In this document: positions 12,309 to 55,173 of the stretch, one piece after another
Numbering within the stretch: position 1 is the stretch's first letter
Layout of the letters: each line of letters begins with the position of its first letter
Source: Artocarpus heterophyllus
Taxonomy: Eukaryota; Streptophyta; Magnoliopsida; Rosales; Moraceae
Direction: 5' to 3'
DNA: 64,000 nt
Assembly: GCA_025403435.1 (NCBI GenBank)
Contig: CM046330.1
Coordinates: 13,910,239 to 13,974,238 of the forward strand
The notes under the pieces: model-generated
What the model was told of the DNA's origin: nothing
Databases searched by the model: none
What the model saw: only the letters and a program-made list of their open reading frames with translations
Translations under genes and position numbers: made by a program

Positions 12309-12313
12309 GTTGT
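12309..12313. repeat. Target-site duplication, left copy
   Basis: The 5-bp gttgt immediately precedes the left LTR and is repeated exactly at 20474-20478. Confidence 0.9.
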
Positions 12314-14277
12314 TGTAACGCCCCTATGTGGGGGTTAACAGTTTTTAATGAGATAAAATAAAAATAAATAATAAAAGTAAAACCTTAAAAATAAAATTTG
12401 CCCGGGACTTAAATGAAAACTCTCAACTCAAAAATAAAAATATAAACGACAAATAAATCACAGTTTTAATGTAGCACCTTAAATTTAATAATATAAACTG
12501 TTGTCATCATCATTTTAACCCTCAACACATTATAATACAGTCACAGAAAGTAACAATTGATGCTTACATTATCATGAAGAACATTCTTTACAATTGAGCA
12601 GTCCCAATGTAATATAGTTACATCGCTTCCTCAACTATATTTCTCGTAGCCACCTCACACTTAGTGAGTCCTGAAAAGATATAAACATAAGGGAATGAGC
12701 AACACTATGCTCAGTAGAGAAAGCCATTACTCACCTCTATCATTACCACATTAAAATCTGCATGGTTAGTAAGTCACATCATATTTCAGATTATGAGGTT
12801 TATTATGATCACATCTTATGGATACCGTAGTTAATCATTACCAAGTGTCATAATTACACATTTATACAAATATTACCAATCATCATTGTTCCTAGGTATC
12901 CATGTTAAATTGAGTATCACTCAACTCATCGAAACCCAAGTGGGCGCACTTGATCACCCCATAAACATTCCAAGGGTGTTCCGGTGAGGGGACATCAAGC
13001 CCCGAGTCCTCACCAAGTCGATTCCTGTACAGTGTGTTCTGGGACTTTCAACCCAAGGAAGCGTCATCGCCTTCCCCCTATTTTACCTTTTAGGGTATTC
13101 ATGCCCAAGGACGTAACCGTCGCCCTCTTCATGTCTCACAATTTCTCTATATTGAATCATTATCAATAGAGTTAGTTTTCCTAACCATGCTTCTCAATTT
13201 ATAACATGTGTCAATTCATTATGTTCCTCGCCGTACAATACAAGACGAGTCCATGTCATAGTTTCATATGTGATACTCATATAATATTAGTTCAACATAG
13301 ATATATATATTGCGACAAAACAATCAATTTTAATTCTATAAAAACCTCACAAAAGATGAGTAATAGAATCCCTACCTTTTAAGCTTATCAACAGTCTCTT
13401 AATCCTGGAATCAATTAACGTTAGCTCCATACTCCCTTGATCCTAAGGCGTGCATAAGGACAATTAAAACTAAAGCACAATATACAACTACATTCATAAA
13501 ATTCATTTTAATTTAATCTTAGAATTTCAAGAAATAACCACTGCCCATAGAGGTATTACAAAGTTTAACAATATAAATTTTCTGTCTAGGGCATATACAC
13601 TTAGACTTCATACATATGCTCCAAAATAGCAACAAACATATACTTAGGTTTAAGAACGCAAATTTGAATAATCCTTTAGTATAAAAGAAAATTTATAAAT
13701 GAAAGACTAAATTTGTTCATAAGATTCTAACCTCGGATTATGGTTAGTTGGAAGCTTGAAATGGCTTCAAAACAGATTCCTTTACTTCGGTATGACTGAA
13801 ATTCTTGCTCAAATGGAGGTGATGGTGGCTGATTTTTATGGCTGCCTTGAAGAAGTTCTCTAAGTATTTTGCTTCAGCAAAGAAATGAGAAGAAGAGTGT
13901 GGGAACCGTGGAAGAGAAAGGAAGAAAAGATGAAGTCTTTGAAGAGAAGTGATAGAAACAATTATAGAGGAGACATGTTGAAGCATGTCACGGAGGAAAT
14001 AAAGAAAATGAGGGTCAAGAGTAGTTGGAAAAGATATCCTTATGTCTCATCTAAAGACTTTAACACACATAATGCCAATATGACATTTTTGAGATTTATT
14101 AGAAGTTCTAAGGCTTTTTAGTAATCATACTAAATAAATATAGGAGAATTTTAGAAAATTTAAAAATAGATAAAAATAAATATTATAAAATAAATTTAAA
14201 TGAAGCAATTTTTTTTTTATACATTAAAAATTAATTTAATTACCTCAATACCCGTTAGGAGAATAACGGGTGTCACA
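12314..14277 (-). repeat. 3' LTR of the LOG-carrying element
   Basis: 1964 bp, TGTAACG...TGTCACA as written on the plus strand. It matches 18510-20473 except for two substitutions seen by eye (around 12449 and 12691). Compared with the solo LTR at 51364-53715 it lacks a 387-bp segment. Short ORFs within it recur in every LTR copy and are not treated as genes. Confidence 0.95.
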
Positions 14278-14294
14278 GCTCTACCCCCCTTAAA
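14278..14294 (-). other. Polypurine tract
   Basis: On the minus strand the bases next to the 3' LTR read AAGGGGGGTAGAGC, preceded by the TTTCGAGGACGAAATT motif also found next to the chromovirus 3' LTRs here (42830 and 55138). It is the expected primer for plus-strand DNA. Confidence 0.85.
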
Positions 14295-15238
14295 GAAATT
14301 TCGTCCTCGAAATTTCAATTCTAGTAATACTAGTAAAAATTATGATTCCACTATGATTCCAATTCTGAGTCTAAACCGTTAATGTTCTTTGTCCTCCAAA
14401 TTTAAGTTATCGTAACTCCACTTATTTACTTGCATAATAAATCTTACTCTAAATTCCAAATCCCTCAATGAGAGTATTTCTGACAAGTTTCAACTTGTAA
14501 CACCGTATAATAGTCTAAGAATCTGATCAGGCATACATATTGACCATACCATGATTCCGGTCCTTCATTGTCCATGGACTGTGATTTACAATCACATTTA
14601 AGGAGATTGCCAGAGAAATTTTATATACTTCATCTTTAGGTTCCTTTTCCTTTTTGAGTAAGGAAAAGTCAAATATATTTGATTTCATACCTCAACTAAT
14701 AAACTAAAACATAATCATAAAACATATATCACAAACACTTTTATTCAAAACTATACATTAAACTTACTCATAGAGATATTAAGCGGAATCTCAGAGTTGC
14801 AAACATACCCGACATATTTTTCATTAAACAGCTATCCTCATGACACAAACATTCAATCCAAATAATATACTCATATTTCATATGGAATATCCCCATAACT
14901 GACTCTGGTACTTCCACATAATATTAACAGAATATTACACATTACAAACATAATACGGATACGTTTCGAGAGTACAAGGCACTCCGTATACCAGCTATCC
15001 ATATCATGCATGCTTAGAGGATACAAAAACATCGATAAACAAAAGATCGGACCTTAAGAAGGATGCGTTTCGAGAGCATCAAGTACTCCGTATCCAGCCA
15101 TCCCGGCATTAGGCTCAATGAATCTAAAAGATTTAACAACGACGTACCACAAGAAACACAGAATACAAGGCAAACGGTTATTCGTAACACACGAAATACG
15201 GACACACATGCCTACATGCCAAAGATAAAACAAAAAGA
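14295..15238 (-). other. 3' untranslated interior of the LOG-carrying element
   Basis: No ORF of note lies between the LOG stop codon and the polypurine tract. A degenerate 40-bp direct repeat (14959-15000 and 15063-15102) is the only structure seen. Confidence 0.5.
14959..15102. repeat. Spaced direct repeat downstream of the LOG-like ORF
   Basis: 14959-15000 and 15063-15102 share cgtttcgagag, then caag-actccgtat, then ccag-catcc, with start points about 104 bp apart. This suggests an old local duplication in the element's 3' region. Confidence 0.65.
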
Positions 15239-15889
15239 TTACAGATGGAGATTCAAATCAATTGGCCGCTCCCGGCTTTCCCTTTCCCATTCAAGCTTGG
15301 ATGTTGCAGTGTCGGATTCTGGATGTATGATTTGCATTTTATCTATCAATTCCTCAGCTGTTGAAGCAGTAACAAAGATTTGTCTCTCCGATTCTGTAGT
15401 GATGTTTTCTTCCACAGCGTAATCTAGAAATTTCAAAAGACCGTCATAAAAACCCTTTACGTTCAGCAGACCCAAAGGTTTGGAATAAAAGCCCAACAAT
15501 TGCCCACAAGCAACTATAAATATTTCCTCAAGAGTACCTAGACCACCAGGTAATGCTATAAAAGCATCGGAATTATAGATTATGTCTTTAAAATTTTTAG
15601 GGATACTCCTGACTCCTTCTCCCTTACCTATGGCTTCCTTACAAAGGTTTCCTTCAACTGGAATATGAGGCCAAATTCTTACATCAGTAGCGTCGCTAGA
15701 CCTAGCTGCTAGTGCCATATTTACCATCATTTTTATACTACCACCCCCATAGATTATGTTAATCTTCTTGTGTGCTAGGACTTGCCCTAAGTGATTTGCA
15801 GCTTCTAAATAAGCTTTATCTTTTCCAAGGCTGGAACCACAAAAGACACAGATATTCTTTATTTTCTTCGTGGACTGGGAGGTAGACAT
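15239..15889 (-). CDS. LOG: LOG-like cytokinin riboside 5'-monophosphate phosphoribohydrolase, intronless, inside retrotransposon
   Basis: A 216-residue protein from the ATG at 15889; the frame also runs upstream to a GTG but no earlier ATG. Its length equals the usual 210-225 residues of plant LOG. Family hallmarks are present in order: ICVFCGSSLGK near the N terminus, YGGGS, DAFIALPGGLGTLEE (the PGGxGTxxE nucleotide-binding and catalytic motif), KPLGLLNVKGFYDGLL, and a C-terminal TSKLEWE. Known role: LOG enzymes release free-base cytokinin from the riboside monophosphate in the cytosol. Oddities: the normally invariant MHQRKAEMARQ segment just before DAFIALPGG is replaced at the same spacing by an IPKNFKDIIYN sequence, which removes its conserved arginines, so activity is doubtful. 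Plant LOG genes have several introns and this copy has none, which fits capture through RNA. It lies sense to the element, 604 bp after the first ORF. Confidence 0.85.
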   Translation of the reverse strand: MSTSQSTKKIKNICVFCGSSLGKDKAYLEAANHLGQVLAHKKINIIYGGGSIKMMVNMALAARSSDATDVRIWPHIPVEGNLCKEAIGKGEGVRSIPKNFKDIIYNSDAFIALPGGLGTLEEIFIVACGQLLGFYSKPLGLLNVKGFYDGLLKFLDYAVEENITTESERQIFVTASTAEELIDKMQIIHPESDTATSKLEWERESRERPIDLNLHL

Positions 15890-16532
15890 ATTTGGTTTAT
15901 AGAAGTGGTTGCTTAATGTCTGCTCCACTTAGACTTCGGGTTCTACATGAGATTTTAAAGATGAGAAATATACAAAAAGGGCTAAAGAGATAGACGAGTA
16001 GGTAATGAAAAAGTAATCCAAAGATTTAAACAAAATCTTGTGCGGATAAGAAAGTAAGATAAGGTGATTGATAGTTTACAGAAAATTTGATTCACTTTTT
16101 GAAAAAGATTAGACTCTAATTGTATAACTTTTGACAATTGAGAACAATTCGACAGAAGACCCTCATGACACAACTGTAGACTTTTTGACAAATATACACC
16201 AAGTCTAGAAATTTAATATAAACGACAAATACTGTAGAACTTTTGAAATTTGAGACACAAATCTTGAAATATCTGGATAAGCTTTTCAAAATTCAAACAT
16301 ATTACTGTACCGTATGTAACGTGTCTGATAAGATAATATATTTTATTATATATATATTTAAGAAAATCATAAATTAAATAAGATATTAACACTTACTGTA
16401 TCAATCTAATAATCACAATTATTTCAAACACAAAAGCAAATATTCTGAGTAAAAGAAAAACACAAACTGTTGAACATCAGCTAAAACTGCTTCAAATAAG
16501 TAAAGACTAAATAACCTTTATAGAGCGATGAC
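15890..16532 (-). other. Spacer between the two element ORFs
   Basis: AT-rich. A 69-codon open frame at 15982-16191 shows no known motif. It could be remnant untranslated sequence of a captured transcript. Confidence 0.4.
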
Positions 16533-17054
16533 TTATTTCCCATCCAGTTTTCTTATGGCTTGGCAAACAGGATCTAGAAATACCATATTCCTGAGGCGTT
16601 GTCTTTCTGTATAAAATTTAGGCCAGAGTTTAAAAATAGCTCCTTGAACATATCCACTAGGGTGACCGTGGAGAGGAGGATGGATGCTATCCAAGTTCTC
16701 CTTTGAAAGTCCATTCCTACAAAACCTTATTTTATCCTCTCTATTCGTAGACATATAACCAGGTGAAGTACATTTACCGTTACAATTTTGTCTTCCACAT
16801 TTGTTACAAGTGATCACGATGGCACGAGCTCTTCTTTTCATTGCACTACGACTGGTACCTGTTCCTGGTAAACCGACATCTTGACTAAAGTCACTCGGAC
16901 GGATCTTCCCCTCTATCAACATTCTCACATCACAAGGGATGCCAAAACGCATAAGAATCCACAACCGAGTAATTCTAGCCTTATATTTCTTTCTGAGAAT
17001 CTTTTGGGAGAGTGATGGGAAATACTTTCTCAGGTGTTGGTACTTTGGGTCCAT
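16533..17054 (-). CDS. Unrecognised basic protein with CCCC zinc-knuckle-like motif
   Basis: A 173-residue protein from the ATG at 17054; the frame extends seven codons upstream to a TTG only. The N-terminal third is strongly basic (LRKKYKARITR). A Cys cluster ITCNKCGRQNCNGKC at residues 81-95 has spacing C-x2-C-x4-C-x3-C, like a retroviral zinc knuckle with His replaced by Cys. The C-terminal part contains HPPLHGHPSGY and ends KLDGK. It is the first ORF after the leader, the position normally held by gag, and is sense to the element. I do not recognise the family. It could be a captured host gene fragment, a Gag-like RNA-binding protein, or a piece of another transposon. Confidence 0.6.
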   Translation of the reverse strand: MDPKYQHLRKYFPSLSQKILRKKYKARITRLWILMRFGIPCDVRMLIEGKIRPSDFSQDVGLPGTGTSRSAMKRRARAIVITCNKCGRQNCNGKCTSPGYMSTNREDKIRFCRNGLSKENLDSIHPPLHGHPSGYVQGAIFKLWPKFYTERQRLRNMVFLDPVCQAIRKLDGK

Positions 17055-18489
17055 GATGAGATGAAAGAAGAGCAAATAGAAAGGAAAAATTAAGATAGTA
17101 AATTGCAGAATCCTAGAATTCCTTCTTCTTTTAGAGGAAAAGAAGAATTTCTAATGAAAAAGAAGAGGATTTGCGATTTAGAGAAAATAACAAATTAAGA
17201 GAGAAAAAGTGAACTCGGAGAAATAAGCTCCTATGCACAGTAAACGTATATGTAAACAATGATTAAACCACTGTATATGACACGTATAGAGACCACGTGG
17301 GAGAGACAGTGTGAATCAAACTGATTTAAGATTTGAACTAGGCCCAAATGTTCTTAGTTGAAAATGGTCAGGTTGTTTCGGCCTTAACACATTTAGAACG
17401 AGTTAAATAACAAACATAAAATTGAAAACCAATTCGTATGAATCTTAAACCCAATTCAAAGCCCACTATAGATAAAGTTAACTATAAACAACAAATCTAA
17501 TTTAACGACAACAAGGATCTTCCTGAATGATCCAGCAACTCAAATAATTTTGTTTTAATCAAAACCTTATTGAACAATGCATACACCCATATGTTATTGA
17601 TAATACTTAACATCTATCAATGGATTCATCATCATTACTACCAAGGGTTTAGAATGCGACTAACTTTGAAATCAATACGATTTACGTCTTTTAACATAGA
17701 CCATATCAATGAACAAAGACACTAGATGTTACTACTTAAAAACATCTACAATCCCCACAATTCTACTCATACAATATATAATTTCCTCATATAACAAAAC
17801 CTTAGGTAACCAAAAGATTCACTGATACACTTAAATACAATGTACGTAACGAAATATTCCAATTTTGAGATTCATGCATTCTAGACTTTACACAGTCTCA
17901 ACAGACCAAAAGTCTAACATTTATCTCTCTCAAGATTCAATACCATGATTCCCAACTTATATCATATTCCTCAAATATATAGAACTTTCAAGAAAAGTTA
18001 TTGACACTTATGTGCTCCATCGAATCCACACATAATCATTACTTAAGTTTGAATCAATTACAAAAAATTTGGCATATCTATGCCAAACTTTAAAATCAAT
18101 AAATCAAGCCTTATATTTCTTATTGTTTTTCACAAAATAAAAGGCTATTAAATCCTTGTATCTACACGAATTTCTCATCGTTTATACGAATTAGATATGC
18201 TTATAGATCCAAATATTATACGAATCTCTCATAAGCATTCTACTTATAAACTCATTCCATATAATTATCATTCCCTTATAACTATTAATACTTTCCTTCT
18301 ATATAATTATTGTACTCATATAACCATTAGTATTTTCATTCTATGGCCTTTCCATGTTACATCCTTCTAGACTGTATAAATCAATGTGAAGGTTCATTTT
18401 GATGATGACAATAAAAATTCAGCTTCAAAACCATCTCAAAAATATATTTTTTTAAAGTGGTGCTACACTCCCTAGGTTAACCGAACCTA
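17055..18489 (-). other. 5' leader of the LOG-carrying element
   Basis: About 1.4 kb without a convincing ORF. The first roughly 100 bp after the primer site (18489-18385) match the leader of the chromovirus at 37979-38090 (cctaggttcg-ttaacctaggg, tagcaccac, ggtttt, gtcatcatca). The rest is AT-rich, with a loose 45-bp tandem repeat near 18250-18345 and a pyrimidine-rich stretch before the first ATG (17055-17200, minus). Confidence 0.55.
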
Positions 18490-18502
18490 GGCTCTGATAC
18501 CA
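18490..18502 (-). other. tRNA-iMet primer binding site
   Basis: TGGTATCAGAGCC on the minus strand, complementary to the 3' end of initiator tRNA-Met, seven bases inside the 5' LTR. It sets the element's orientation. Confidence 0.93.
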
Positions 18503-18509
18503 AAAATTC

Positions 18510-20473
18510 TGTAACGCCCCTATGTGGGGGTTAACAGTTTTTAATGAGATAAAATAAAAATAAATAATAAAAGTAAAACCTTAAAAATAAAATTTGCCCG
18601 GGACTTAAATGAAAACTCTCAACTCAAAAATAAAAATATAAACGACAAATAAACCACAGTTTTAATGTAGCACCTTAAATTTAATAATATAAACTGTTGT
18701 CATCATCATTTTAACCCTCAACACATTATAATACAGTCACAGAAAGTAACAATTGATGCTTACATTATCATGAAGAACATTCTTTACAATTGAGCAGTCC
18801 CAATGTAATATAGTTACATCGCTTCCTCAACTATATTTCTCGTAGCCACCTCACACTTAGTGAGTCCTGAAAAGATATAAACATAAGGAAATGAGCAACA
18901 CTATGCTCAGTAGAGAAAGCCATTACTCACCTCTATCATTACCACATTAAAATCTGCATGGTTAGTAAGTCACATCATATTTCAGATTATGAGGTTTATT
19001 ATGATCACATCTTATGGATACCGTAGTTAATCATTACCAAGTGTCATAATTACACATTTATACAAATATTACCAATCATCATTGTTCCTAGGTATCCATG
19101 TTAAATTGAGTATCACTCAACTCATCGAAACCCAAGTGGGCGCACTTGATCACCCCATAAACATTCCAAGGGTGTTCCGGTGAGGGGACATCAAGCCCCG
19201 AGTCCTCACCAAGTCGATTCCTGTACAGTGTGTTCTGGGACTTTCAACCCAAGGAAGCGTCATCGCCTTCCCCCTATTTTACCTTTTAGGGTATTCATGC
19301 CCAAGGACGTAACCGTCGCCCTCTTCATGTCTCACAATTTCTCTATATTGAATCATTATCAATAGAGTTAGTTTTCCTAACCATGCTTCTCAATTTATAA
19401 CATGTGTCAATTCATTATGTTCCTCGCCGTACAATACAAGACGAGTCCATGTCATAGTTTCATATGTGATACTCATATAATATTAGTTCAACATAGATAT
19501 ATATATTGCGACAAAACAATCAATTTTAATTCTATAAAAACCTCACAAAAGATGAGTAATAGAATCCCTACCTTTTAAGCTTATCAACAGTCTCTTAATC
19601 CTGGAATCAATTAACGTTAGCTCCATACTCCCTTGATCCTAAGGCGTGCATAAGGACAATTAAAACTAAAGCACAATATACAACTACATTCATAAAATTC
19701 ATTTTAATTTAATCTTAGAATTTCAAGAAATAACCACTGCCCATAGAGGTATTACAAAGTTTAACAATATAAATTTTCTGTCTAGGGCATATACACTTAG
19801 ACTTCATACATATGCTCCAAAATAGCAACAAACATATACTTAGGTTTAAGAACGCAAATTTGAATAATCCTTTAGTATAAAAGAAAATTTATAAATGAAA
19901 GACTAAATTTGTTCATAAGATTCTAACCTCGGATTATGGTTAGTTGGAAGCTTGAAATGGCTTCAAAACAGATTCCTTTACTTCGGTATGACTGAAATTC
20001 TTGCTCAAATGGAGGTGATGGTGGCTGATTTTTATGGCTGCCTTGAAGAAGTTCTCTAAGTATTTTGCTTCAGCAAAGAAATGAGAAGAAGAGTGTGGGA
20101 ACCGTGGAAGAGAAAGGAAGAAAAGATGAAGTCTTTGAAGAGAAGTGATAGAAACAATTATAGAGGAGACATGTTGAAGCATGTCACGGAGGAAATAAAG
20201 AAAATGAGGGTCAAGAGTAGTTGGAAAAGATATCCTTATGTCTCATCTAAAGACTTTAACACACATAATGCCAATATGACATTTTTGAGATTTATTAGAA
20301 GTTCTAAGGCTTTTTAGTAATCATACTAAATAAATATAGGAGAATTTTAGAAAATTTAAAAATAGATAAAAATAAATATTATAAAATAAATTTAAATGAA
20401 GCAATTTTTTTTTTATACATTAAAAATTAATTTAATTACCTCAATACCCGTTAGGAGAATAACGGGTGTCACA
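18510..20473 (-). repeat. 5' LTR of the LOG-carrying element
   Basis: 1964 bp, same length as its partner and virtually identical to it. It is the presumed promoter for the minus-strand transcript that would carry both ORFs. Confidence 0.95.
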
Positions 20474-20478
20474 GTTGT
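20474..20478. repeat. Target-site duplication, right copy
   Basis: gttgt, identical to 12309-12313. Confidence 0.9.
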
Positions 20479-26798: not shown

Positions 26799-27589
26799 AT
26801 TTTTGCCACCAAAGTTTCTCTCTCTATAGTTATAAGACCAAAAGAAACAGATTTCCCTCCCTTTAGCCCTTACACAAGGACACCACTCCTATAACTAAGG
26901 GCATGGTGCCCCCATACCCTTTTGTTGCACCTTAATATTACACGTAATAACCATTGCCCCAAAAGCAACAGGAAGCAAAATGACCAAAAAAAAAACAATG
27001 ATCCAAATTTAATCAGAATACAACATTATAAGGGCCATTCCCAAAACCCAATATCAAGACATTAAAGCTAAAAAAAAAAAAAAACGGAGATGATGAAATA
27101 GTATATATTTCAACCGAAAATGACAAAAATAATCACCTATGAGCAAAAAATTTGATGAATAACAACAACAGTAGTAGTAATAAGATATGATAATTCATAA
27201 CCAATAATAATTATAATATACTCATAAAAATGATGACGAAGATTATTGAAAATTACCTGTTGTTGAAGAGCGAAAATATGAGCGACGCAGCCGTAGACGG
27301 GGTCACGGAGGCGTGCCTGGGCCTCGTAGCAGACGGTGACGACGGCGTCGAGGCGCTTGTGGATGGGGATGTGGAGGAGGAGCTTGGACACGTTGCTGGC
27401 TCCGAAGACTTTGTGCACCGCCGCGAAGTGGGCTGCTCCTTGCTCCGAGTCGAAGTAAGGCGCGAATATGCAACCTGGCACGCACTTCCTCCTCAAGAAC
27501 TTGCACGCGCCGCACGGCCCGCCTCCTCCCCCTCCCCCTCCCCCTCCTCCGCCGCTACCACTGCTACTAGGGTTTTGGTTTGCGTTCAT
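24579..27589 (-). CDS. LBD18: LOB-domain transcription factor, LBD18-like (exons 27589-27257 and 24974-24579)
   Basis: Two exons, phase-0 junction, 242 residues. Exon 1 starts [10 protein letters not shown] (the frame runs five codons upstream to a TTG only), followed by a polyglycine run and the LOB domain: zinc-binding [15 protein letters not shown] (C-x2-C-x6-C-x3-C), the GAS block [17 protein letters not shown], then [22 protein letters not shown] and a Leu-zipper-like helix that crosses the junction ([20 protein letters not shown]). Exon 2 has a proline-rich stretch, [30 protein letters not shown] and [17 protein letters not shown], all typical of LBD18. Donor GTAATT at 27256 and acceptor TTTGCGCAG ending at 24975 are good. 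In Arabidopsis LBD18 acts in the nucleus downstream of ARF7/ARF19 in auxin-driven lateral root formation and with LBD30 in xylem differentiation; function here is inferred. Confidence 0.95.
24975..27256 (-). other. Large intron of the LBD18-like gene
   Basis: 2282 bp, GT-AG on the minus strand. AT-rich, with a CT microsatellite (26762-26791). A 72-codon plus-strand frame at 26403-26621 has no known domain and is not called a gene. Confidence 0.9.
26762..26791. repeat. (CT)n microsatellite in LBD18 intron
   Basis: About 14 CT units. Confidence 0.95.
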
Positions 27590-35150: not shown

Positions 35151-37958
35151 TGTAACACCCGTATTTTTAACGGGCATGATTTTGTAAAATTTAATGAATA
35201 AAATGTGACTATTTAAAATTACTAAGTTGTTTACGATCATTAAAAAAAAAAAATACCACTTTAGTATTTTCTTACCAAGTCTTCCTAAGAAACATTCAAA
35301 ATTTACCAACACTTCTACCAATCTTGTCTCCCTAAATTATTGCTCAATTATATAGCCTTCTTCTTATTTTGCTAAAGGTATCCGAAGGGGACATTGAATT
35401 ATTTTCCCTCAATTCATAAAAGACATGGAGATATTTTCTCAACCACCTCTTTAATTATTTCCTTATCTTCTTCTATAATTCACTCCAATTGTCCCCTCAA
35501 TTATGTTAGCATGATTTGCTAAAAATCTTCATGGGAGACAAGATGATATTTTCCTTTAAGACTCTTTTGTTTCTTCTTACAACTTTCCCCCGTAAACATC
35601 CCATTCCTCTTAAGCATTTTGATATCTTTTTATTTAACTATCACCACCTTCTTCTCTAGTTCTCATTCTCTCCCTTTCTCACTTCAAATTTCTAACTAAA
35701 GACATAGAGCACAAAGCTCTCTTTGTGACCAAGACAATTATAATTCCCAACCATGATCGAGGCGGTTTTAGAGTTAATTCAAGCTTGATTGTTAACCCGA
35801 ACTTTGGTGCTTTTCAAAGAAGTTTTGAGGTAGGTTTTCTTTAATCTAAACTTAGTTTTTAGTATGTATTTTCTCCATGTTTAATGCATAATTTTCGTGT
35901 TCAAAATTCATGCAAATTTCTAGTTATGTTAACATGCATCCTTAAACATTTATGAACAAAAACTTGAGTCTTGAGTTACAACCCACAACCAACTTTTATT
36001 TTGGTTTGATGACAATGTTAGAAACATGTTAGGAATGTTTAAAACCGGTTTCCATAACTTTAAGATTGATGTTCTAATGTTTTGAGCTTAAAGAGCAAAT
36101 TTAAGCATGTTTTCATCATTATTTACAAGAAAGGCTAGAGATATAATTTGATAATGATTTTGGTATAAAACTCATGAGAATATGTTTATTCTGATTATAT
36201 AATGCATGTTGCATATTTTGGAATGGTTTTGAGATTTTAAACAAGGATAATATGCTTTAAGTTAAAGAAAAATTTGACATCCCATAAACTTTATAATACC
36301 TCTATGGGCAGTGGCTATTTCTTAAAATTCTGGAGTTAAATGAAAATGAATTTTGTAAATTGGTTTGCATATTTAAAAAGTAGACATCCTAAGCTTTCCA
36401 ATGAGCTATCATGACCCTAAATCGGAGTTGTATTTTAATTTCTATGAATTTTTCAATTTTCGGATTAGAAACTAGTAAACCTGCCAGTGGTAATAAACCA
36501 CCCGTCTATCTTAAGTAAACCACCTGTTAACCCGTGTGTTAATTGTAGATAGTGAACCCGTCTTTTTACAAAAGTATACCACCATGTTGCCATGGTATAC
36601 TAGCTGTTAACTTGAACCAAAAACCCAACTTTGCTCACCTTCTAGTCTCTTAATGTCTTACAACCTTTCCAATACTACCCTAAATGATTTATGAATTCTT
36701 ATTAGAGACTAAAACATAAAAATTGCTTGTATGTATTTTATATTGCGTTTAAGATAAAAATTGTTTACTTGGTATTTAAAGAACAATTGCATAAAAATAC
36801 TTTAATGGCACTAGTAGACGGGTTTACACATAATTCACTTATGAATGTGATTATACGTTGTGCTTTAGTTTTAATTGTCCTTATGCATGCCTTAGGGTCA
36901 AGGATGTGTGGAGCTAACGTTGATTAATTCCGAGAATAAAAGTTTGTTGTTAAGCTTTGAAGGTAGGGATTCTATTACTCATCTTTTGTGAGGTTTTGGT
37001 AAATTAAATTTGATTGTTTTATATTGTAAAATATGTATATTGTATAGCGATAAATATAATGATTTGACATATGTTATAAATTGAGAAGCATGGTTAGGAA
37101 ATTGACTCTATAAATATAAATTGAATACAAAGGAATAGTGAGATGTAAAAAGGGCGACGGTTACGTCCTTGGGCACGAATACCCTAAAAGGAAAAATAGG
37201 GGGAAGGTGATGACGCTTCCTTGGGTTGAAAGTCCCAGAACACACTGTACAGGAATCGATTTGGTGAGGACTCGGGGCTTGATGTCCCCTCACCGGAACA
37301 CCCTTGAAATGTTTATAGGGTGATCAAGTACGCCCATTTGGGTTTCGATGAGTTGAGTGATACTCAATTTAACATGGATACCTAGGAACAATGATGATTG
37401 GTAATATTTGTATAAATGTGTAATTATGACACTTGGTAATGATTAACTACGGTATCCATAAGATGTGATCATAATAAACCTCATAATCTGGAATATGATG
37501 TAACCTACTAACCATGCAGTTTTTAATGTGGTAATGGATAAACCATAAGGTGAGTCATGATTTCCCTACTGGGCATGTCGATGCTCATCCCTATCATATC
37601 TTCATATCTCAGGTGGAACTCAGTGCAACATATTTGAAGAGGAATAAGCGAAAACAATCTTGTTGTTTTCGTGTTAGAAGACCCTGTTTAATTACAACTT
37701 ATCTACAACATGTAAGAGTTGTATTATTTTTTTTTATGGCTGTGTTAAGTTATTTGGGAATTGTACTATGGTGATGATGACTGTAATTATATATATTTGG
37801 TGCTACACTAAAAACTGTGGTTTGTATTTAAAACGTTTATTTTTATTTTTCTTGTTGTTTAAAGACCCATGGGCATTATTTAATTGATTTAAATAATTTA
37901 AAATTTAAAATTATTGTTATTTATTTAAAACTGTTAACCCCCACATAGGGGTGTTACA
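35151..37958 (+). repeat. 5' LTR of the chromovirus
   Basis: TGTAACACCC...GGTGTTACA, 2808 bp. It contains an inverted repeat gtatacca...tggtatac (about 36576-36602) in a variable block, and a GC-richer core (37150-37310) conserved with the LTRs of the LOG-carrying family. Confidence 0.96.
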
Positions 37959-37965
37959 GAATTTT

Positions 37966-37978
37966 TGGTATCAGAGCC
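37966..37978 (+). other. tRNA-iMet primer binding site
   Basis: TGGTATCAGAGCC, seven bases after the 5' LTR. Confidence 0.95.
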
Positions 37979-38109
37979 TAGGTTCGATTAACCTAGGGGG
38001 TATAGCACCACCTTAAAAATTAATCTTTGGGAATGGTTTTAGAGTTAGGTGTTAATGTCATCATCATTTGGTACTGATCCTAGTTAAATTTTCGCAGCCA
38101 GTAGAAACT

Positions 38110-38451
38110 ATGCCACCAAGACGTCAAATGCAATCGTCTGAGCTGTCACAACCGGTTGAACATGCTCAAGAAGTTGAGCAACCGGAACCGATGGAACAAG
38201 CTCAAGAAGATGAGCAACTACGACATGCAACACAATCCCCGCCAGCTGCACCAGAAGTAAATAATTTAGGACAAATTCTTCAAGCATTACAAAATGTGCA
38301 AAGACCTGTGGAGGTTCGTGATCCCGAACAACGACATCTAACTCTGTTGAAGGAGTTTATGAAGCAGAAACCACCCACATTTAGTGGAGAACCTAACCCG
38401 GTCATAGCAGAACAATGGCTAAAGGCAGTCAAAAGAAGTTGGACACCTTGA
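38110..38451 (+). CDS. gag: gag, N-terminal segment (frame 1, ends at premature stop)
   Basis: It starts [10 protein letters not shown], a typical plant Ty3/gypsy Gag start; the frame upstream of this ATG opens only with a TTG. It runs through a Glu/Gln-rich N terminus to [26 protein letters not shown] and then reads into a stop at 38449-38451. The natural continuation ([15 protein letters not shown]) is in the -1 frame of the next entry. The switch lies at or near the AAAA run at 38431-38434, so one base appears to be missing, unless the element uses a frameshift here. Confidence 0.85.
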
Positions 38452-41400
38452 GGATTCCACGGGAGTATTGGGTTAGCTTTTCAACATATATATTTGAGGG
38501 TAAAGCCGAAGAATGGTGGGATCTTCAGAAAGACGACTATGACGTGCCGAATCTTACATGGGAGCAGTTCGAAACCATTTTTCGCAACACCTATATTCCT
38601 CAGAGCCATAGGCAAGCAATGATGCGAGAATTTGAAAACCTGGTGCAGGGAGATACAACAGTTGCTGAATACCATGCTCGATTTATAGAATTGTCTCGCT
38701 ACAATCCCGGGGCTGTATCGGATCCAATGGCGAGATGCGAAAAATTTAGAAATAACCTGAGGCCGAAAATCAGACAAATGATAGCTGCTGTTCCATCAAC
38801 AGATTTTCTTGATCTTGTAGCTGCGGCACAACGGGCAGAGACAGAACTAAATAACTCCTATGGAGAGTATAAGGGTTCTGGTGGGCATCAAAGGAAAATA
38901 AGTAAGAAAGAGAAGTCACAAGGGCAAGTCATTCAGCATAGTGGAGTGACTATTGGTGGTGGATCTTCTGGTAGTGGTCGTTTCCAACCGTATGCTTGTC
39001 ATAACTGTGGACAAGTGGGACATCTGAGGAGAAATTGCCCTAACCGCCCTACACAATCATCCTTTGCACCAAGGCCACAAGGAAGTCATTTTGGCTCCAC
39101 TGTTTGGGGAGGGAGTCAAAATCGTGGAGCGCCTCAGCAAAACACTCCAGCTTCCCAAGTCTCAGTAACTCAACCTCGAGGGTTCCAGCCTCAGTACAAC
39201 TATCAACAGCGGCCACAGGGTTCCAATTTTTATGCTAATCAGAACTTCCAACCGACTCCACAAGGCTCAGTGAATCAAAGGCCATATTTTTCTGGGAGAA
39301 ATAATAATAAGGCTAGTAGTAGCCAAGGAAACCGAGGAAAAAGTGATAAAGGAAAAGCACCAGCACAAGCTTATGCAATTACGGCTACAGCTGGACAAGC
39401 AAAACAGGCTGATCACTCAGTTGTAGACGGTATGATTCACGTGTCTCATTCTTGGGCTCATGTATTATTTGACACTGGTGCCACTCATTCATTTATATCT
39501 ATGTTATTTGCTTCCGTACTACAATTAGAAACTGAGACATGTAGTTCATCATTAACCCTTAGTACACCAATGGGCGGGATAGCTGAAGTATCCATAATTT
39601 GTAAATCAGTGTGTATTGTTATAGGAGAACATAAACTATCGGCTGACCTATATGTAATAACTATGACAGAGTTTGATGTAATCTTAGGAATGGATTGGCT
39701 AACTAAATACCAGGCAATAGTAGATTGTCATAGGAAACGTGTCTCTTTATTCACCAAGAATGGACAAGTCGTCGAATTTCAGGCAAAAACAGGAACAGTG
39801 ACACCAGCCCCGGTGCTAAAGGCTTGTATTGGAGGACGAAGGAATTTCACCAATCTTGGGACGATCTTTGCTTCAAATGGAGAACTAAAGAAGAGTGACC
39901 TATCCTCTCACACTCTTGTGGTGGACGAATTTTCAGATGTTTTTCCAGATGAATTGCCCGGACTTCCGCCTAATAGAGAAATTGAGTTTGTCATCGACCT
40001 AACTCAAGGAACAACGCCTGTTTCTATTGCTCCGTATCGAATGGCACCTGCTGAGAAAGTGGAATTGAGGAAGCAGTTGGACGAATTACTGGAAAAAGGA
40101 TTTATTCGACCAAGTACATCACCTTGGGGAGCTCCAGTACTTTTTGTGAAGAAACATGACGGATCGTTGAGGCTCTGTGTCGATTATCGCCAGCTTAATC
40201 GATTGACTATCAAGAACAAGTACCCTCTACCCCGAATTGATGAGTTGTTCGATCAGTTAGGAGGATCTTGCTATTTCTCAAAGATTGACTTACGATCTGG
40301 ATATCACCAACTGAAGATAAGAGAAGAGGACATTCCAAAGACAGCTTTTCGGACTCGCTACGGTCATTTTGAGTTTCTTGTCATGCCTTTCGGGTTGACT
40401 AATGCACCAGCGGCTTTCATGGACTTGATGAACCGTGTCTTTCGACCGTACTTAGATCAATTTATCATTGTCTTCATAGATGATATCTTGATCTATTCTA
40501 AAAATGAAGAAGAACATGCTGAGCATTTGAGGATCGCTCTACAAACGTTGAGAGAACATGGTCTTTATGCAAAAAGAGAAAAATGTGATTTCTGGATGAC
40601 GAAGGTCAAGTTCCTTGGACACGTTGTCTCTGAAGAAGGCATCTCAGTGGACCCCTCCAAAATTGAAGCAGTGCTAAATTGGGAACGACCAAAGAACGTG
40701 TCGGAGATTCGAAGTTTCCTCGGACTAGCTGGATACTATCGACGCTTTGTAGAGAATTTTTCAAAGATTGCTTCTCCATTAACAAAACTCACAAGGAAGA
40801 ATGTCAAGTTCGTGTGGGATGATAAATGTGAAGAAGCATTTGAGGAACTGAAGCGAAGACTCACTAGTGCACCTGTGCTAATCATACCTAACAACGAGGA
40901 GCCTTACACAGTATACACTGATGCCTCAGGAAACGGTTTGGGTTGTGTGTTAATGCAGCATGGACGAGTAGTTGCCTACGCCTCACGCCAGTTGAAACCC
41001 CATGAGAGGAACTACCCCACACATGATCTTGAGTTAGCTGCTGTGGTTTTCGCACTCAAAATTTGGAGATGTTATCTATATGGTGCAAAGTTCGAGCTAT
41101 ATTCAGATCATCAAAGTCTGAAATATTTGTTTACTCAAAAGGATCTCAATCTAAGGCAACGAAGATGGACTGAGTACATGGTGGACTATGACTTTAGTAT
41201 CCAATATCATCCTGGAAAAGCAAATGCCGTGGCAGATGCTCTAAGTCGTAAGAACAACGGACGTATAGCCAGTTTAGCATTGGAAGATTGGAGACGAGTC
41301 ACCATCGCCGACTTCAACTTGCAATATTATGAAGATGACGAGAGAGCTTTCCTATTCAATGTGATAGCAACTCCTACGTTAATTCAGAAAGTAAAACAAG

Positions 41401-42806
41401 GACAATGGCACGATGAAGGATTACGTAGGGTTTGGGAGCAAATACAAAATGGAGAACAACTGGATGGATGGCAGATTGAGCCAGAAGGATTTTTACTTTA
41501 CAAAGGAAGATTAGTTGTTCCAGAGGATCCATATCTCAGGCATGCGGTGCTAGATGAGGCTCACCGTTCAAAGTTTGCTATTCATCCTGGAAGCACAAAA
41601 ATGTATATGGATCTAAAACGACAATACTGGTGGCGAGGAATGAAACGAGATGTAGCAACCTTTGTCTCTAAGTGCATGACGTGCCAACAGGTTAAAGCGG
41701 AACATCAAAAGCCTGGAGGCGAGTTGAGGAGCTTACCTATTCCAGAATGGAAGTGGGATCATGTGACAATGGACTTTGTTACTGGATTTCCTAAGACTCA
41801 AATAGGGCATGACGCCGTTTGGGTAATTGTAGATCGTTTAACTAAGACAGCCCACTTCATCCCAATCAGAACTAGTTATAGTGTCTCAAAATTATGTCAA
41901 TTATACGTGGAAAAGGTAGTGACATTGCATGGAGTGCCAATGTCAATAGTTTCCGATAGAGATACACGTTTCACGTCGAAATTTTGGAGAGGATTGCAGA
42001 GGGCCTTAGGAACTCAATTGAATTTTAGTACAGCTTTTCATCCTCAAACAGATGGACAATCTGAACGTGTCATTCAGATTCTCGAGGATATGCTTCGGGC
42101 TTGTGTGCTGGACTTTGGAACAAATTGGGCTGCACAGCTGCCATATGTTGAATTCGCATATAACAACAGTTACCAAGCAAGTATTAGAATGGCTCCATAT
42201 GAGGCCTTATATGGTAGACCTTGTAGATCTCCATTGTGTTGGGCTGAAAAGGAAGAGCGTCTTGAACTTGGGCCTCAGTTTATCAGAGAAACAACGGACA
42301 AGATCCAGATTATTCGCGAACGTCTTCAGACAGCTCAAAGTCGACAAAAGAGTTATGCAGATAAGAGGAGGCGACCTTTAGAGTTCATGATTGGAGACTT
42401 TGTGTTCTTAAAAGTGAAACCAAAACGAGGTGTATCTCGATTTGGTGTTAAAGGAAAGTTAGCACCAAGGTATACAGGACCGTTTGAGATTGTGGAACGC
42501 ATTGGAACGTTGGCATACCGTTTAGACCTACCACCACAATTGTCTCATGTACATAATGTGTTTCATGTATCGATGTTGAGAAAGTATGAACCCGACCCTT
42601 CACATGTGATCATGTGGACAGATGTGCCGATTCAAGGAGATACGAATTATGAAGAAATTCCAGTTCAAATACTGGATCATGAAATAAAAATATTACGTCG
42701 TCGTGAAATTCCTCTGGTGAAAGTGATGTGGCAACACCATGATGTGGAGGAAGCCACATGGGAACTTGAATCTGAAATGAGAGAAAAGTATCCACATTTG
42801 TTTTAA
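38415..42806 (+). CDS. gag-pol: gag C-terminal part plus pol polyprotein with chromodomain
   Basis: Open for 1463 codons; the first ATG is probably not a real start, since it lies inside gag. Order and rough residues: Gag core with EEWWDL (35) and [15 protein letters not shown]; zinc knuckle [14 protein letters not shown] (about 195-208); aspartic protease FDTGATHSF (Asp about 353); reverse transcriptase with [18 protein letters not shown] and catalytic FIDD (about 687-690); RNase H starting YTDASG (about 833) with DHQSLKYL; integrase zinc HHCC (His about 1050, Cys about 1087 and 1090), catalytic D, D and E near 1120, 1181 and 1217; the GPF/Y-type [12 protein letters not shown] segment; chromodomain about 1400-1463. 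All catalytic residues are in place. The product would copy and integrate the element, with the chromodomain thought to guide it to heterochromatin. Confidence 0.97.
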
Positions 42807-42849
42807 CATTGTAATCAGTGTAAGAAATTTCGAGGACGAAATTTTTTAT

Positions 42850-42862
42850 AGGAGGGGAGAGC
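42850..42862 (+). other. Polypurine tract
   Basis: aggaggggagagc directly before the 3' LTR, following the conserved tttcgaggacgaaatt motif. Confidence 0.9.
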
Positions 42863-45669
42863 TGTAACACCCGTATTTTTAACGGGCATGATTTTGTAAA
42901 ATTTAATGAATAAAATGTGACTATTTAAAATTACTAAGTTGTTTACGATCATTAAAAAAAAAAAATACCACTTTAGTATTTTCTTACCAAGTCTTCCTAA
43001 GAAACATTCAAAATTTACCAACACTTCTACCAATCTTGTCTCCCTAAATTATTGCTCAATTATATAGCCTTCTTCTTATTTTGCTAAAGGTATCCGAAGG
43101 GGACATTGAATTATTTTCCCTCAATTCATAAAAGACATGGAGATATTTTCTCAACCACCTCTTTAATTATTTCCTTATCTTCTTCTATAATTCACTCCAA
43201 TTGTCCCCTCAATTATGTTAGCATGATTTGCTAAAAATCTTCATGGGAGACAAGATGATATTTTCCTTTAAGACTCTTTTGTTTCTTCTTACAACTTTCC
43301 CCCGTAAACATCCCATTCCTCTTAAGCATTTTGATATCTTTTTATTTAACTATCACCACCTTCTTCTCTAGTTCTCATTCTCTCCCTTTCTCACTTCAAA
43401 TTTCTAACTAAAGACATAGAGCACAAAGCTCTCTTTGTGACCAAGACAATTATAATTCCCAACCATGATCGAGGCGGTTTTAGAGTTAATTCAAGCTTGA
43501 TTGTTAACCCGAACTTTGGTGCTTTTCAAAGAAGTTTTGAGGTAGGTTTTCTTTAATCTAAACTTAGTTTTTAGTATGTATTTTCTCCATGTTTAATGCA
43601 TAATTTTCGTGTTCAAAATTCATGCAAATTTCTAGTTATGTTAACATGCATCCTTAAACATTTATGAACAAAAACTTGAGTCTTGAGTTACAACCCACAA
43701 CCAACTTTTATTTTGGTTTGATGACAATGTTAGAAACATGTTAGGAATGTTTAAAACCGGTTTCCATAACTTTAAGATTGATGTTCTAATGTTTTGAGCT
43801 TAAAGAGCAAATTTAAGCATGTTTTCATCATTATTTACAAGAAAGGCTAGAGATATAATTTGATAATGATTTTGGTATAAAACTCATGAGAATATGTTTA
43901 TTCTGATTATATAATGCATGTTGCATATTTTGGAATGGTTTTGAGATTTTAAACAAGGATAATATGCTTTAAGTTAAAGAAAAATTTGACATCCCATAAA
44001 CTTTATAATACCTCTATGGGCAGTGGCTATTTCTTAAAATTCTGGAGTTAAATGAAAATGAATTTTGTAAATTGGTTTGCATATTTAAAAAGTAGACATC
44101 CTAAGCTTTCCAATGAGCTATCATGACCCTAAATCGGAGTTGTATTTTAATTTCTATGAATTTTTCAATTTTCGGATTAGAAACTAGTAAACCTGCCAGT
44201 GGTAATAAACCACCCGTCTATCTTAAGTAAACCACCTGTTAACCCGTGTGTTAATTGTAGATAGTGAACCCGTCTTTTTACAAAAGTATACCACCATGTT
44301 GCCATGGTATACTAGCTGTTAACTTGAACCAAAAACCCAACTTTGCTCACCTTCTAGTCTCTTAATGTCTTACAACCTTTCCAATACTACCCTAAATGAT
44401 TTATGAATTCTTATTAGAGACTAAAACATAAAAATTGCTTGTATGTATTTTATATTGCGTTTAAGATAAAAATTGTTTACTTGGTATTTAAAGAACAATT
44501 GCATAAAAATACTTTAATGGCACTAGTAGACGGGTTTACACATAATTCACTTATGAATGTGATTATACGTTGTGCTTTAGTTTTAATTGTCCTTATGCAT
44601 GCCTTAGGGTCAAGGATGTGTGGAGCTAACGTTGATTAATTCCGAGAATAAAAGTTTGTTGTTAAGCTTTGAAGGTAGGGATTCTATTACTCATCTTTTG
44701 TGAGGTTTTGGTAAATTAAATTTGATTGTTTTATATTGTAAAATATGTATATTGTATAGCGATAAATATAATGATTTGACATATGTTATAAATTGAGAAG
44801 CATGGTTAGGAAATTGACTCTATAAATATAAATTGAATACAAAGGAATAGTGAGATGTAAAAAGGGCGACGGTTACGTCCTTGGGCACGAATACCCTAAA
44901 AGGAAAAATAGGGGGAAGGTGATGACGCTTCCTTGGGTTGAAAGTCCCAGAACACACTGTACAGGAATCGATTTGGTGAGGACTCGGGGCTTGATGTCCC
45001 CTCACCGGAACACCCTTGAAATGTTTATAGGGTGATCAAGTACGCCCATTTGGGTTTCGATGAGTTGAGTGATACTCAATTTAACATGGATACCTAGGAA
45101 CAATGATGATTGGTAATATTTGTATAAATGTGTAATTATGACACTTGGTAATGATTAACTACGGTATCCATAAGATGTGATCATAATAAACCTCATAATC
45201 TGGAATATGATGTAACCTACTAACCATGCAGTTTTTAATGTGGTAATGGATAAACCATAAGGTGAGTCATGATTTCCCTACTGGGCATGTCGATGCTCAT
45301 CCCTATCATATCTTCATATCTCAGGTGGAACTCAGTGCAACATATTTGAAGAGGAATAAGCGAAAACAATCTTGTTGTTTTCGTGTTAGAAGACCCTGTT
45401 TAATTACAACTTATCTACAACATGTAAGAGTTGTATTATTTTTTTTATGGCTGTGTTAAGTTATTTGGGAATTGTACTATGGTGATGATGACTGTAATTA
45501 TATATATTTGGTGCTACACTAAAAACTGTGGTTTGTATTTAAAACGTTTATTTTTATTTTTCTTGTTGTTTAAAGACCCATGGGCATTATTTAATTGATT
45601 TAAATAATTTAAAATTTAAAATTATTGTTATTTATTTAAAACTGTTAACCCCCACATAGGGGTGTTACA
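42863..45669 (+). repeat. 3' LTR of the chromovirus
   Basis: 2807 bp. It differs from the 5' LTR by a T run of eight instead of nine near 45438; no base substitution was noticed. Confidence 0.96.
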
Positions 45670-50130: not shown

Positions 50131-50186
50131 GTTCCAAGAAGACATGCCTTGGAGGATGAAAGAATCTAGCTTGTTATGCCCTTCTT

Positions 50187-51363: not shown

Positions 51364-53715
51364 TGTAACGCCCCTATATGGGGGTTAACAGTTTTTAATG
51401 AGATAAAATAAAAATAAATAGTAAAAGTAAAACCTTAAAAATAAAATTTACCCGGGACTTAAATGAAAACTCTCAACTCAAAAATAAAAATATAAACGAC
51501 AATTAAACCACAGTTTAATGTAGCACCTTAAATTTAATAATATAAACTGTTGTCATCATCATTTTAACCCTCATCACATTGTAATACAGTCACAGAAAGT
51601 AACAATTGATGCTTACATTATCATGAAGAACATTCTCAACAATTGAAGCAGTCCCAATGTAATATAGCTACATCACTTCCTCAACTATATTTCTCGTAGC
51701 CACCTCACACTTAGTGAGTCCTGAAAAGATATAAACATAAGGGAATGAGCAACACTATGCTCAGTAGAGAAAGCCATTACTCACCTCTATCATTACCACA
51801 TTAAAATCTGCATGGTTAGTAAGTAACATCATATTTCAGATTATGAGGTTTATTATGATCACATCTTATGGATACCGTAGTTAATCATTACCAAGTGTCA
51901 TAATTACACATTTATACAAATATTACCAATCATCATTGTTCCTAGGTATCCATGTTAAATTGAGTATCACTCAACTCATCGAAACCCAAATGGGCGCACT
52001 TGATCACCCTATAAACATTCCAAGGGTGTTCCGGTGAGGGGACATCAAGCCCCGAGTCCTCACCAAATCGATTCCTGTACAGTGTGTTCTGGGACTTTCA
52101 ACCCAAGGAAGCGTCATCGCCTTCCCCCTACTTTACCTTTTAGGGTATTCATGCCCAAGGACGTAACCGTCGCCCTTTTCATGTCTCACAATTTCTCTAT
52201 ATTAAATCATTATTAATAGAGTTAATTTTCCTAACCATGCTTCTCAATTTATAACATGTGTCAATTCATTATGTTCCTCGCCGTACAATACAAGACGAGT
52301 CCATGTCATAGTTTCATATGTGATACACATATAATATCAGTTCAACATAGATATATATATATTGCGGCAAAACAATCAATTTTAATTCTATAAAAACCTC
52401 ACAAAAGATGAGTAATAGAATCCCTACCTTTCAAGCTTATCAACAATCTTTTAATCCTGGAATCAGTTAACGTTAGCTCCATACTCCCTTGATCCTAAGG
52501 CGTGCATAAGGACAATTAAAACTAAAGCACAACATACAACTACATTCATAAATAAATCATGTGTAAACCTATCTTACTAGTATGCCATTAAAGCTTTTAT
52601 ATAAATCTCTTTTGAATACCACAGTAAACAATATTTGTCTTAACACAATATAAAATGTGAACAAGTAATCTATATGTTTTAGTCCCTAATAAGATTCATC
52701 AATCACTTAGGATAATATTGGAAAGGTTGCAAGACATTAAAGAATTAGGTGGTGAGCAAAGATGGGTTCTTGGTTCAGGTTAGCAGCTGGTATACCATAA
52801 CAAACTGGCAGATTTACTAGTTTCCAATACAAAAATTGAATAATTCTTAGAAAATAAAACACAACTCCGATTTAGGTTTATGATAGCTCGTTAGAAAGCC
52901 TAGGATGCTACTTTTCAAATATGCAAACCAATTCATAAAATTCATTTTAATTTAATCTTAGAATTTCAAGAAATAACCACTGCCCATAGAGGTATTACAA
53001 AGTTTAACAATATAAATTTTCTGTCTAGGGCATATACACTTAGACTTCATACATATGCTCCAAAATAGCAACAAACATATACTTAGGTTTAAGAACGCAA
53101 ATTTGAATAATCCTTTAGTATAAAAGAAAATTTATAAATGAAAGACTAAATTTGTTCATAAGATTCTAACCTCGGATTATGGTTAGTTGGAAGCTTGAAA
53201 TGGCTTCAAAACAAGTTCCTTTACTTCGGTATGACTGAAATTCTTGCTCAAATGGAGGTGATGGTGGCTGATTTTTATGGCTGCCTTGAAGAAGTTCTCT
53301 AAGTATTTTGCTTCAGCAAAGAAATGAGAAGAAGAGTGTGGGAACCGTGGAAGAGAAAGGAAGAAAAGATGAAGTCTTTGAAGAGAAGTGATAGAAACAA
53401 TTATAGAGGAGACATGTTGAAGCATGTCACGGAGGAAATAAAGAAAATGAGGGTCAAGAGTAGTTGGAAAAGATATCCTTATGTCTCATCTAAAGACTTT
53501 AACACACATAATGTCAATATGACATTTTTGATATTTATTAGAAGTTCTAAGGCTTTTTAGTAATCATACTAAATAAATATAGGAGAATTTTAAAAAAATT
53601 TAAAAATAGATAAAAATAAATATTATAAAATAAATTTAAATGAAGCAATTTTTTTTATACATTAAAAATTAATTTAATTACCTCAATACCCGTTAGAAGA
53701 ATAACGGGTGTCACA
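51364..53715 (-). mobile_element. Solo LTR of the LOG-carrying retrotransposon family
   Basis: 2352 bp with the same ends (TGTAACGCCCC...GTGTCACA on the plus strand) as the LTRs at 12314 and 18510, flanked by the 5-bp duplication cattc. No internal region remains, so it formed by LTR-LTR recombination. It keeps a 387-bp block (52544-52930) that the young element lacks, bounded by 9-bp direct repeats attcataaa; that block is related to the chromovirus LTR at about 36360-36840. It carries more differences than the young pair, so it is older. Confidence 0.93.
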
Positions 53716-53720
53716 CATTC
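53716..53720. repeat. Target-site duplication of the solo LTR, right copy
   Basis: cattc, identical to 51359-51363. Confidence 0.9.
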
Positions 53721-55140: not shown

Positions 55141-55173
55141 TCGAGGACGAAATTTCTTTTAGGTGTGGAGAGC

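Follow-up and report, generated by a model that had tools for sequence, protein, structure and literature searches.

The window analysed here, a stretch of 64,000 nucleotides of Artocarpus heterophyllus contig CM046330.1 (assembly GCA_025403435.1), contains at 12314-20473, on the minus strand, a long terminal repeat (LTR) retrotransposon with two open reading frames (ORFs) and no detected gag-pol. One ORF encodes a protein of the LONELY GUY (LOG) family, and the other a putative homologue of viral nucleic-acid-binding proteins (NABPs). The element belongs to a recently active, non-autonomous LTR family that multiplies the LOG-like ORF. Taken as a whole, we lean towards reading it as a non-autonomous Ty3-type element that would be moved in trans and that carries NABP and LOG as an accessory module.

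Structure and multiplication of the element

Both LTRs are 1,964 nt long and differ by 2 mismatches, their termini are TGT...ACA, and GTTGT is duplicated on each side as a target-site duplication. A structural comparison of the window places a primer-binding site and a polypurine tract beside the LTRs. The sequence TGGTATCAGAGC, presumably the initiator tRNA-Met primer site, lies 7 nt to the inside of the LTR that starts at 18510, and the G-rich polypurine tract AAGGGGGGTAGAGC immediately precedes the 3' LTR. The order is 5' LTR, 1,455-nt leader, NABP ORF, 643-nt spacer, LOG ORF, 961-nt tail and 3' LTR, with both ORFs (trimmed to ATG) sense to the element:

12309..12313, no strand: target-site duplication GTTGT, low-coordinate side, from the repeat flanks
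12314..14277, minus: 3' LTR, from the LTR comparison
14278..14295, minus: polypurine tract region beside the 3' LTR, in 40 nt with 90% identity to the candidate partner element
15239..15889, minus: ORF of a 216-aa LOG-like protein; Asn in place of the conserved Arg, PGGLGTLEE intact, EAR-like LNLHL at the C-terminus
16533..17054, minus: ORF of a 173-aa NABP-like protein, putative homologue of flexivirus cysteine-rich nucleic-acid-binding proteins; basic stretch and C-x2-C-x4-C-x3-C
18491..18502, minus: primer-binding site TGGTATCAGAGC, assigned by us to initiator tRNA-Met
18510..20473, minus: 5' LTR, 1,964 nt, with 2 mismatches against the 3' LTR
20474..20478, no strand: target-site duplication GTTGT, high-coordinate side, from the repeat flanks

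The gag and pol of an autonomous Ty3/Gypsy element were found neither in the list of ORFs nor with the gag-pol of a neighbouring element as query, which gave a single 47-residue match to the interior (E 0.02, not credible). The first-pass annotation of this DNA had described the same LTRs, duplication, primer site and polypurine tract around two sense ORFs without retrotransposon proteins, and in all of this it was right.

Multiplication was examined in the window's own genome (985 Mb, 334 contigs). A LOG-guided search gave 1,322 first-look candidates, of which 40 were scored, and all 40, the window included, had a rounded identity of 100%. Twenty other copies were fetched whole, 15 with both LTRs resolved and five with LTRs cut or interrupted in the fetched stretch. 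The resolved copies are 7.9-8.3 kb long, and all but one (L028) have perfect 5-bp duplications, which differ from copy to copy. Seven of the 15 have no substitution between their LTRs, the maximum being 9 in about 1,970. A 27-nt degenerate pattern for PGGLGTLEE had 3,120 matches in the genome against 0 for the reversed control, a number that mixes subfamilies and is not a tally of complete elements. With an Arabidopsis LOG as query there were 5,601 first-look candidates, and among the 150 scored 110 had no stop inside the match and 40 had one.

The ORFs were followed in 46 copies, namely the window, the 39 other scored places and six picked by the 27-mer only; 40 of the 46 are the best places by LOG similarity and are thus biased for a test of LOG. 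No stop was found in LOG in 46 of 46 copies, and in NABP none in 42 of 44, two further copies having been dropped for indels, so that 42 of 46 count as open. In the six copies picked by the 27-mer the corresponding figures are 6/6 and 5/6. The annotation had proposed a non-autonomous family spreading a LOG-like ORF and had asked whether both ORFs stay intact across copies; the duplications in 14 of 15 copies, the pattern matches and the copies with intact ORFs agree with that proposal, and the element is clearly not a single copy in its genome.

The NABP and LOG reading frames

Judging from its relatives, the second ORF is a homologue of the cysteine-rich nucleic-acid-binding proteins of flexiviruses. 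A first search gave 15 relatives, of which 13 match the Pfam family Carla_C4 and 12 Viral_NABP, and a profile search gave 856 at E<=0.01, the best 120 of which were examined. When 125 family members were scanned singly at E<=0.1, 116 matched Carla_C4 and 115 Viral_NABP (best E 3.7e-8 and 1.1e-8, respectively), while the next-ranking family, SHQ1, had 11 matches. Curated cut-offs are exceeded by the relatives P0009 (31.7 against 23) and P0002 (22.6 against 20.9). On these matches the idea of an orphan ORF was rejected. Some of the best 120 relatives lie on chromosomes of Populus x canadensis, P. alba, Xanthoceras sorbifolium, Acer yangbiense, Hibiscus cannabinus and Rhamnella rubrinervis, plants which we take to be rosids, and clusters among the relatives hold up to 566 member sequences.

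The AlphaFold model of the protein has a mean pLDDT of 75.7, and three of its five best viral Foldseek hits are named, these being the 15-kDa protein of cherry mottle leaf virus and the annotated NABPs of red clover vein mosaic virus and Indian citrus ringspot virus. A profile search of the PDB gave two chance-level matches only, and a scan of viral_contigs with the NABP alignment gave 54 pattern matches and no relative. Members of the family have in common a basic KRRA stretch and, for the most part, a C-x2-C-x4-C-x3-C cluster. The window protein, too, has a basic stretch followed by four clustered cysteines, as have the NABPs of carla-, viti- and trichoviruses (PF01623, PF05515), from which it differs in having its gene in a family of plant retrotransposons. 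Carlaviral NABPs are described in PMC8839810 as silencing suppressors with a basic nuclear-localisation stretch before the cysteines, and one of them is linked there to upregulation of a transcription factor and to cell proliferation. By analogy, the NABP of the element may bind nucleic acids and suppress silencing. The element family may offer a cellular relative for the carla-, viti- and trichovirus NABPs.

The LOG ORF matches PF03641 (E 9e-22), its closest PDB sequence is Arabidopsis LOG 2a33 (E 1.5e-43), and its model (mean pLDDT 74.6, with the tail 196-216 below 50) matches LOG structures (Foldseek E 1.5e-16). In a tree of 38 rows, three subfamilies of the window's own genome form one clade (100/100) within a 34-row clade (96/90), with two Arabidopsis LOGs as the next rows out and bacterial LOGs farther out; of the listed relatives, hand-picked in both cases, 31 of 120 went into this LOG tree and 34 into the NABP tree. 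The element protein has the fold and the PGGxGTLEE motif of the plant LONELY GUY phosphoribohydrolases (At2g37210, At5g11950) and its clade lies beside the Arabidopsis LOGs. Unlike these, it is encoded by one uninterrupted ORF, it has been multiplied and, in the window's subfamily, it has lost a conserved Arg. A further apparent difference is the LxLxL tail, the Arabidopsis chains having been compared up to shortly before their ends (2a33 to 207 of 215). The LxLxL end is present in 112 of 121 proteins (the window and the 120 listed relatives), as LNLHL in the window. LxLxL is the EAR motif, and the window protein may perhaps bind a co-repressor through its tail. Patterns for the canonical PGGYGTLEE and FIALPGGYGT had 0 matches in the window's genome, and host LOG genes and their introns were therefore not seen; our guess is that an intron within the motif of the host genes explains the lack of PGGYGTLEE matches.

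A LOG that still made active cytokinin would raise meristem activity, and more germ-line cells would then inherit new copies of the element. We consider this unlikely for the window's subfamily, although the predicted fold matches LOG enzymes, PGGLGTLEE is intact and none of the 14 near-invariant columns in residues 106-125, which hold this motif, is changed. Moreover, another subfamily of the genome keeps the Arg and GGGS(L/I)GLMG in 5 of 5 frames (L063-L067, at the top of the list from the Arabidopsis query), which end in DLSL with a shortened tail like that of L050. However, the Arg of the MHxRK stretch, which we take to be catalytic, is Asn in the window protein, while it is kept in 113 of the 120 listed relatives and in the other LOG subfamilies of the genome. 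In residues 50-105 the window has changed 13 of 17 near-invariant columns, against 3 of 17 each in L053 and L050, divergent copies of two other subfamilies. The ratio of nonsynonymous to synonymous substitution rates (dN/dS) in these residues is 0.78 for the window against L053 and 0.95 against L050, and elsewhere, where computable, 0.12-0.27. Single-lineage amino-acid changes fall in residues 50-105 in 14 of 28 cases for the window and in 4 of 23 for L053.

With the Arg replaced and 13 of the 17 near-invariant positions around it changed, cytokinin production by the window copy is doubtful, and its subfamily has probably lost catalysis. The earlier description of an element that spreads a hormone-related ORF thus holds for the multiplication of a LOG-like ORF but does not imply active cytokinin, the active-site half being degraded. 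In one subfamily the enzyme site persists and the tail is shortened, and in that of the window the tail persists and the site is changed, a split which may represent a division of function.

Age of the gene pair and signs of selection

Five divergent copies were retrieved with variant spellings of the motif. In three of them (L050, L051 and L053, from two subfamilies) LOG is preceded by an NABP frame at about the same distance as in the window, and protein identities to the window are 50-57% for LOG and 58-68% for NABP. Their NABP frames have 1-3 stops each and the LOG of L051 is also broken. Of the other two copies, L052 is degenerate and L054 has a different upstream reading frame in place of NABP. 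This frame in L054, of 299 aa, lies with a broken LOG and by eye resembles a retroelement protease region, as in a nested insertion or another LOG-bearing element. Short repeats of 80-88% identity (L061 and L062), unmatched by the element or its candidate partner, lie on either side of L053 and are possibly remains of an unrelated LTR.

Relatives of both proteins were also found in other species, and twice LOG and NABP relatives lie on contigs of exactly equal size (8,723 and 4,511). For the contig size of 4,511, LOG and NABP each fall next to Populus in their trees; the 8,723-base pair has no named relative for such a check of the pairing. The coincidence was assessed with 49 and 51 contig sizes (about 1.5 kb or more, with cut-offs that differ between the lists and chromosome-scale contigs omitted). 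Over all sizes two such matches would not be exceptional by chance (P 0.11); a P of 0.0006 results from a 4-kb cut that was set after they had been seen. For Xanthoceras the pairing is weak, since the LOG there (P0017) consists of two LOG stretches, lacks the tail and falls outside the main 32-row group.

The comparison with capture of a host transcript, as in Bs1 of maize, had been drawn in the first-pass annotation. As a lone recent event such a capture does not agree with our data, and it was rejected on the occurrence of the pair at 50-57% LOG identity in two other subfamilies and on the relatives of both proteins in other plants. Bs1 and the element are alike as LTR elements bearing plant-derived coding sequence. 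Bs1, however, contains parts of three host genes, none of them complete (PMC13317346), and the element carries a full-length LOG-type ORF together with a viral-type gene, multiplied and present in several old subfamilies. Of captured host sequence in the sense of Bs1, the element has a plant-type, uninterrupted LOG; its NABP is of viral type and the pair is old.

The variation in both ORFs fits purifying selection, and they look as if they have been maintained in the transposing lineage. Between the window and L053, dS is 0.82 and dN 0.26 for LOG (dN/dS 0.32), and 1.07 and 0.21 for NABP (dN/dS 0.20). For the window against L050, dS is saturated or nearly so, and the subfamilies differ by dS of about 0.8-1.6. 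Among the counted copies, NABP variants found in at least two copies comprise 18 synonymous and 11 nonsynonymous changes (pN/pS 0.16), and those private to one copy 6 and 22 (pN/pS 0.97; Fisher p 0.003 for shared against private). This contrast is expected if the ORF matters to copies that transpose and then decays freely after insertion.

These data bear directly on the view that the element has picked up host and viral sequences by template switching as passive cargo of no benefit, the ORFs being intact only through the youth of the copies. The copies are indeed very young, 40 of the 46 were the best by LOG similarity, and gene capture by LTR elements is well known (PMC13317346). For LOG, shared variants (7 synonymous, 5 nonsynonymous) and private ones (3 and 4) do not differ (p 0.65), although their number is too small for a powerful test. 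Such a view is nevertheless already disfavoured, and we find it quite improbable. Shared NABP variants are constrained and private ones are not, the gene order is conserved at 50-57% LOG identity, and the copies picked by the 27-mer are mostly open. Furthermore, dN/dS between the window and L053 is low, and L050 against the broken L051 and L054 gives LOG dN of 0.06 and 0.04 with dS of 0.07. A dead or passive passenger was rejected on the constraint of shared NABP variants, the kept gene order and the two dN/dS values of 0.20 and 0.32.

Alternatively, the retrotransposon might have taken up NABP and LOG only lately, as a pair of domesticated genes from an adjacent locus of the host. In favour of this, relatives of both proteins carry gene annotations on chromosomes of named plants. 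The NABP clusters of up to 566 members and the thousands of LOG motif matches in the genome speak against this, as does the presence of the pair in three subfamilies separated by dS of about 0.8-1.6, and we regard such an origin as very improbable.

Proposed mobilisation in trans and mechanism

The window holds, on its plus strand, an intact element from which the missing functions could come:

35151..45669, plus: intact related Ty3-type element, candidate donor of gag-pol in trans; LTRs 35151-37958 and 42863-45669, 99.96% identical, target-site duplication TATAT
38415..42806, plus: 1,463-aa gag-pol ORF of this candidate partner, with Pfam gag, protease, reverse transcriptase, RNase H, integrase and a weak chromodomain (E 0.0025)
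51364..53715, minus: solo LTR of the LTR family of the NABP-LOG element, target-site duplication CATTC, perfect; about 365 nt absent from that element's own LTR

The LTR core of the NABP-LOG element is 90.6% identical to that of the candidate partner over 554 nt, and the LTR ends are also common to the two. The primer-site region is 84% identical over 111 nt and the polypurine tract 90% over 40 nt. These related regions point to the NABP-LOG element being a non-autonomous derivative of a Ty3-type element, and 35151-45669 could supply it with gag-pol.

The accessory-module reading that we favour may then be put as follows. The gag-pol of related Ty3 elements, such as that at 35151-45669, would package and reverse-transcribe the RNA of the element through the common primer-binding site and polypurine tract. 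The element itself would contribute two accessory genes, NABP and then LOG, whose products may both serve it by altering the host cell. The most likely role of NABP is the one reported for its viral relatives, namely that of a zinc-finger protein which binds nucleic acids in the nucleus and either counters RNA silencing or alters transcription. For LOG, the most likely origin is a single acquisition of an intronless copy of a plant LOG, which would originally have been a cytokinin-activating enzyme with an LxLxL tail. Its lineage may have altered the cytokinin level and, through the tail, perhaps transcription. The active-site residues are kept in other LOG subfamilies, and the LOG of the window's subfamily may have been retained for a different function, for instance the binding of nucleotides, of LOG partners from the host or of a co-repressor.

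Several points weigh against this reading. The window NABP is by itself below the curated Pfam cut-offs (Viral_NABP E 0.012 and 16 bits against 23 in the test of the PF05515/PF01623 family; Carla_C4 E 0.13), and the homology therefore depends on its relatives. None of its viral Foldseek matches reaches E 0.001 (best 3.8e-3, TM 0.40), and its cysteine spacing (x2-x4-x3) is unlike the carlaviral C-x2-C-x12-C-x4-C given in PMC8839810. No LTRs were found around the old copy L053, the one copy examined, with the element or its partner as query, and for this reason the older NABP-LOG subfamilies may be taken as LTR elements only indirectly. The pairing in elements of other plants is probable and comes from contig sizes and trees. 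The LOG variants described above are too sparse to show the contrast seen for NABP. The window LOG differs at 27 of 83 near-invariant columns (L053 18, L050 17, Arabidopsis LOG 17), a total that is not unusual by itself since P. aeruginosa LOG differs at 25. In residues 50-105 dN/dS is 0.54 between L053 and L050, so this part is looser in general. The tree behind a single acquisition of LOG holds only two canonical plant LOGs.

It is tempting to extend this reading, although we hold the following combination only as a tentative and rather doubtful possibility. The element would belong to an ancient retrotransposon lineage without gag-pol, present in several rosid families and bearing a two-gene module for manipulation of the host. 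The virus-type NABP would blunt silencing or alter transcription and the co-repressor-tailed LOG would alter cytokinin, making the cell permissive and proliferative. The module would have split within one genome into forms with the site kept and a short tail and forms with the tail kept and a broken site, and viral and retrotransposon NABPs would be of common ancestry, in either direction.

LARD and TRIM elements are non-autonomous LTR retrotransposons moved in trans, with interiors described as non-coding. The present element resembles them in its LTRs, primer-binding site, polypurine tract and target-site duplication, in having no detected gag-pol and in having ends and primer regions similar to those of an autonomous relative; unlike them, it carries two open and apparently selected protein-coding genes. 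To our knowledge, the usual plant LTR retrotransposon has either gag-pol or no intact gene. Extra ORFs are common to divergent LTR elements of bdelloid rotifers, where they are reported to add to the usual genes (PMC5408684), whereas here they occur without gag-pol. In a literature search that left most subscription papers outside, we met with no description of LTR retrotransposons bearing LOG or NABP, which does not prove that none has been published. A family that multiplies with two selected genes, of which one is common to RNA viruses and the other belongs to the cytokinin pathway, suggests that transposons, as viruses do, can carry counter-silencing and developmental effectors. Among the LOG genes that have been counted in plants there may also be transposon genes, for instance Populus entries named LOGL10.

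Other features of the window were also noted. The extra stretch of about 365 nt in the solo LTR at 51364-53715 is also present in the LTRs of copies L013, L016 and L026 and is thus a variant of the family LTR. This solo LTR interrupts a degraded Ty3-type element at 50094-55183, whose protein is 38-66% identical to the gag-pol of the candidate partner and whose polypurine tract (55137-55173) is still family-like. A pentatricopeptide-like frame at 22553-23344 and a LOB-domain-like one at 27137-27604, both recognised by eye only, have the look of host genes.

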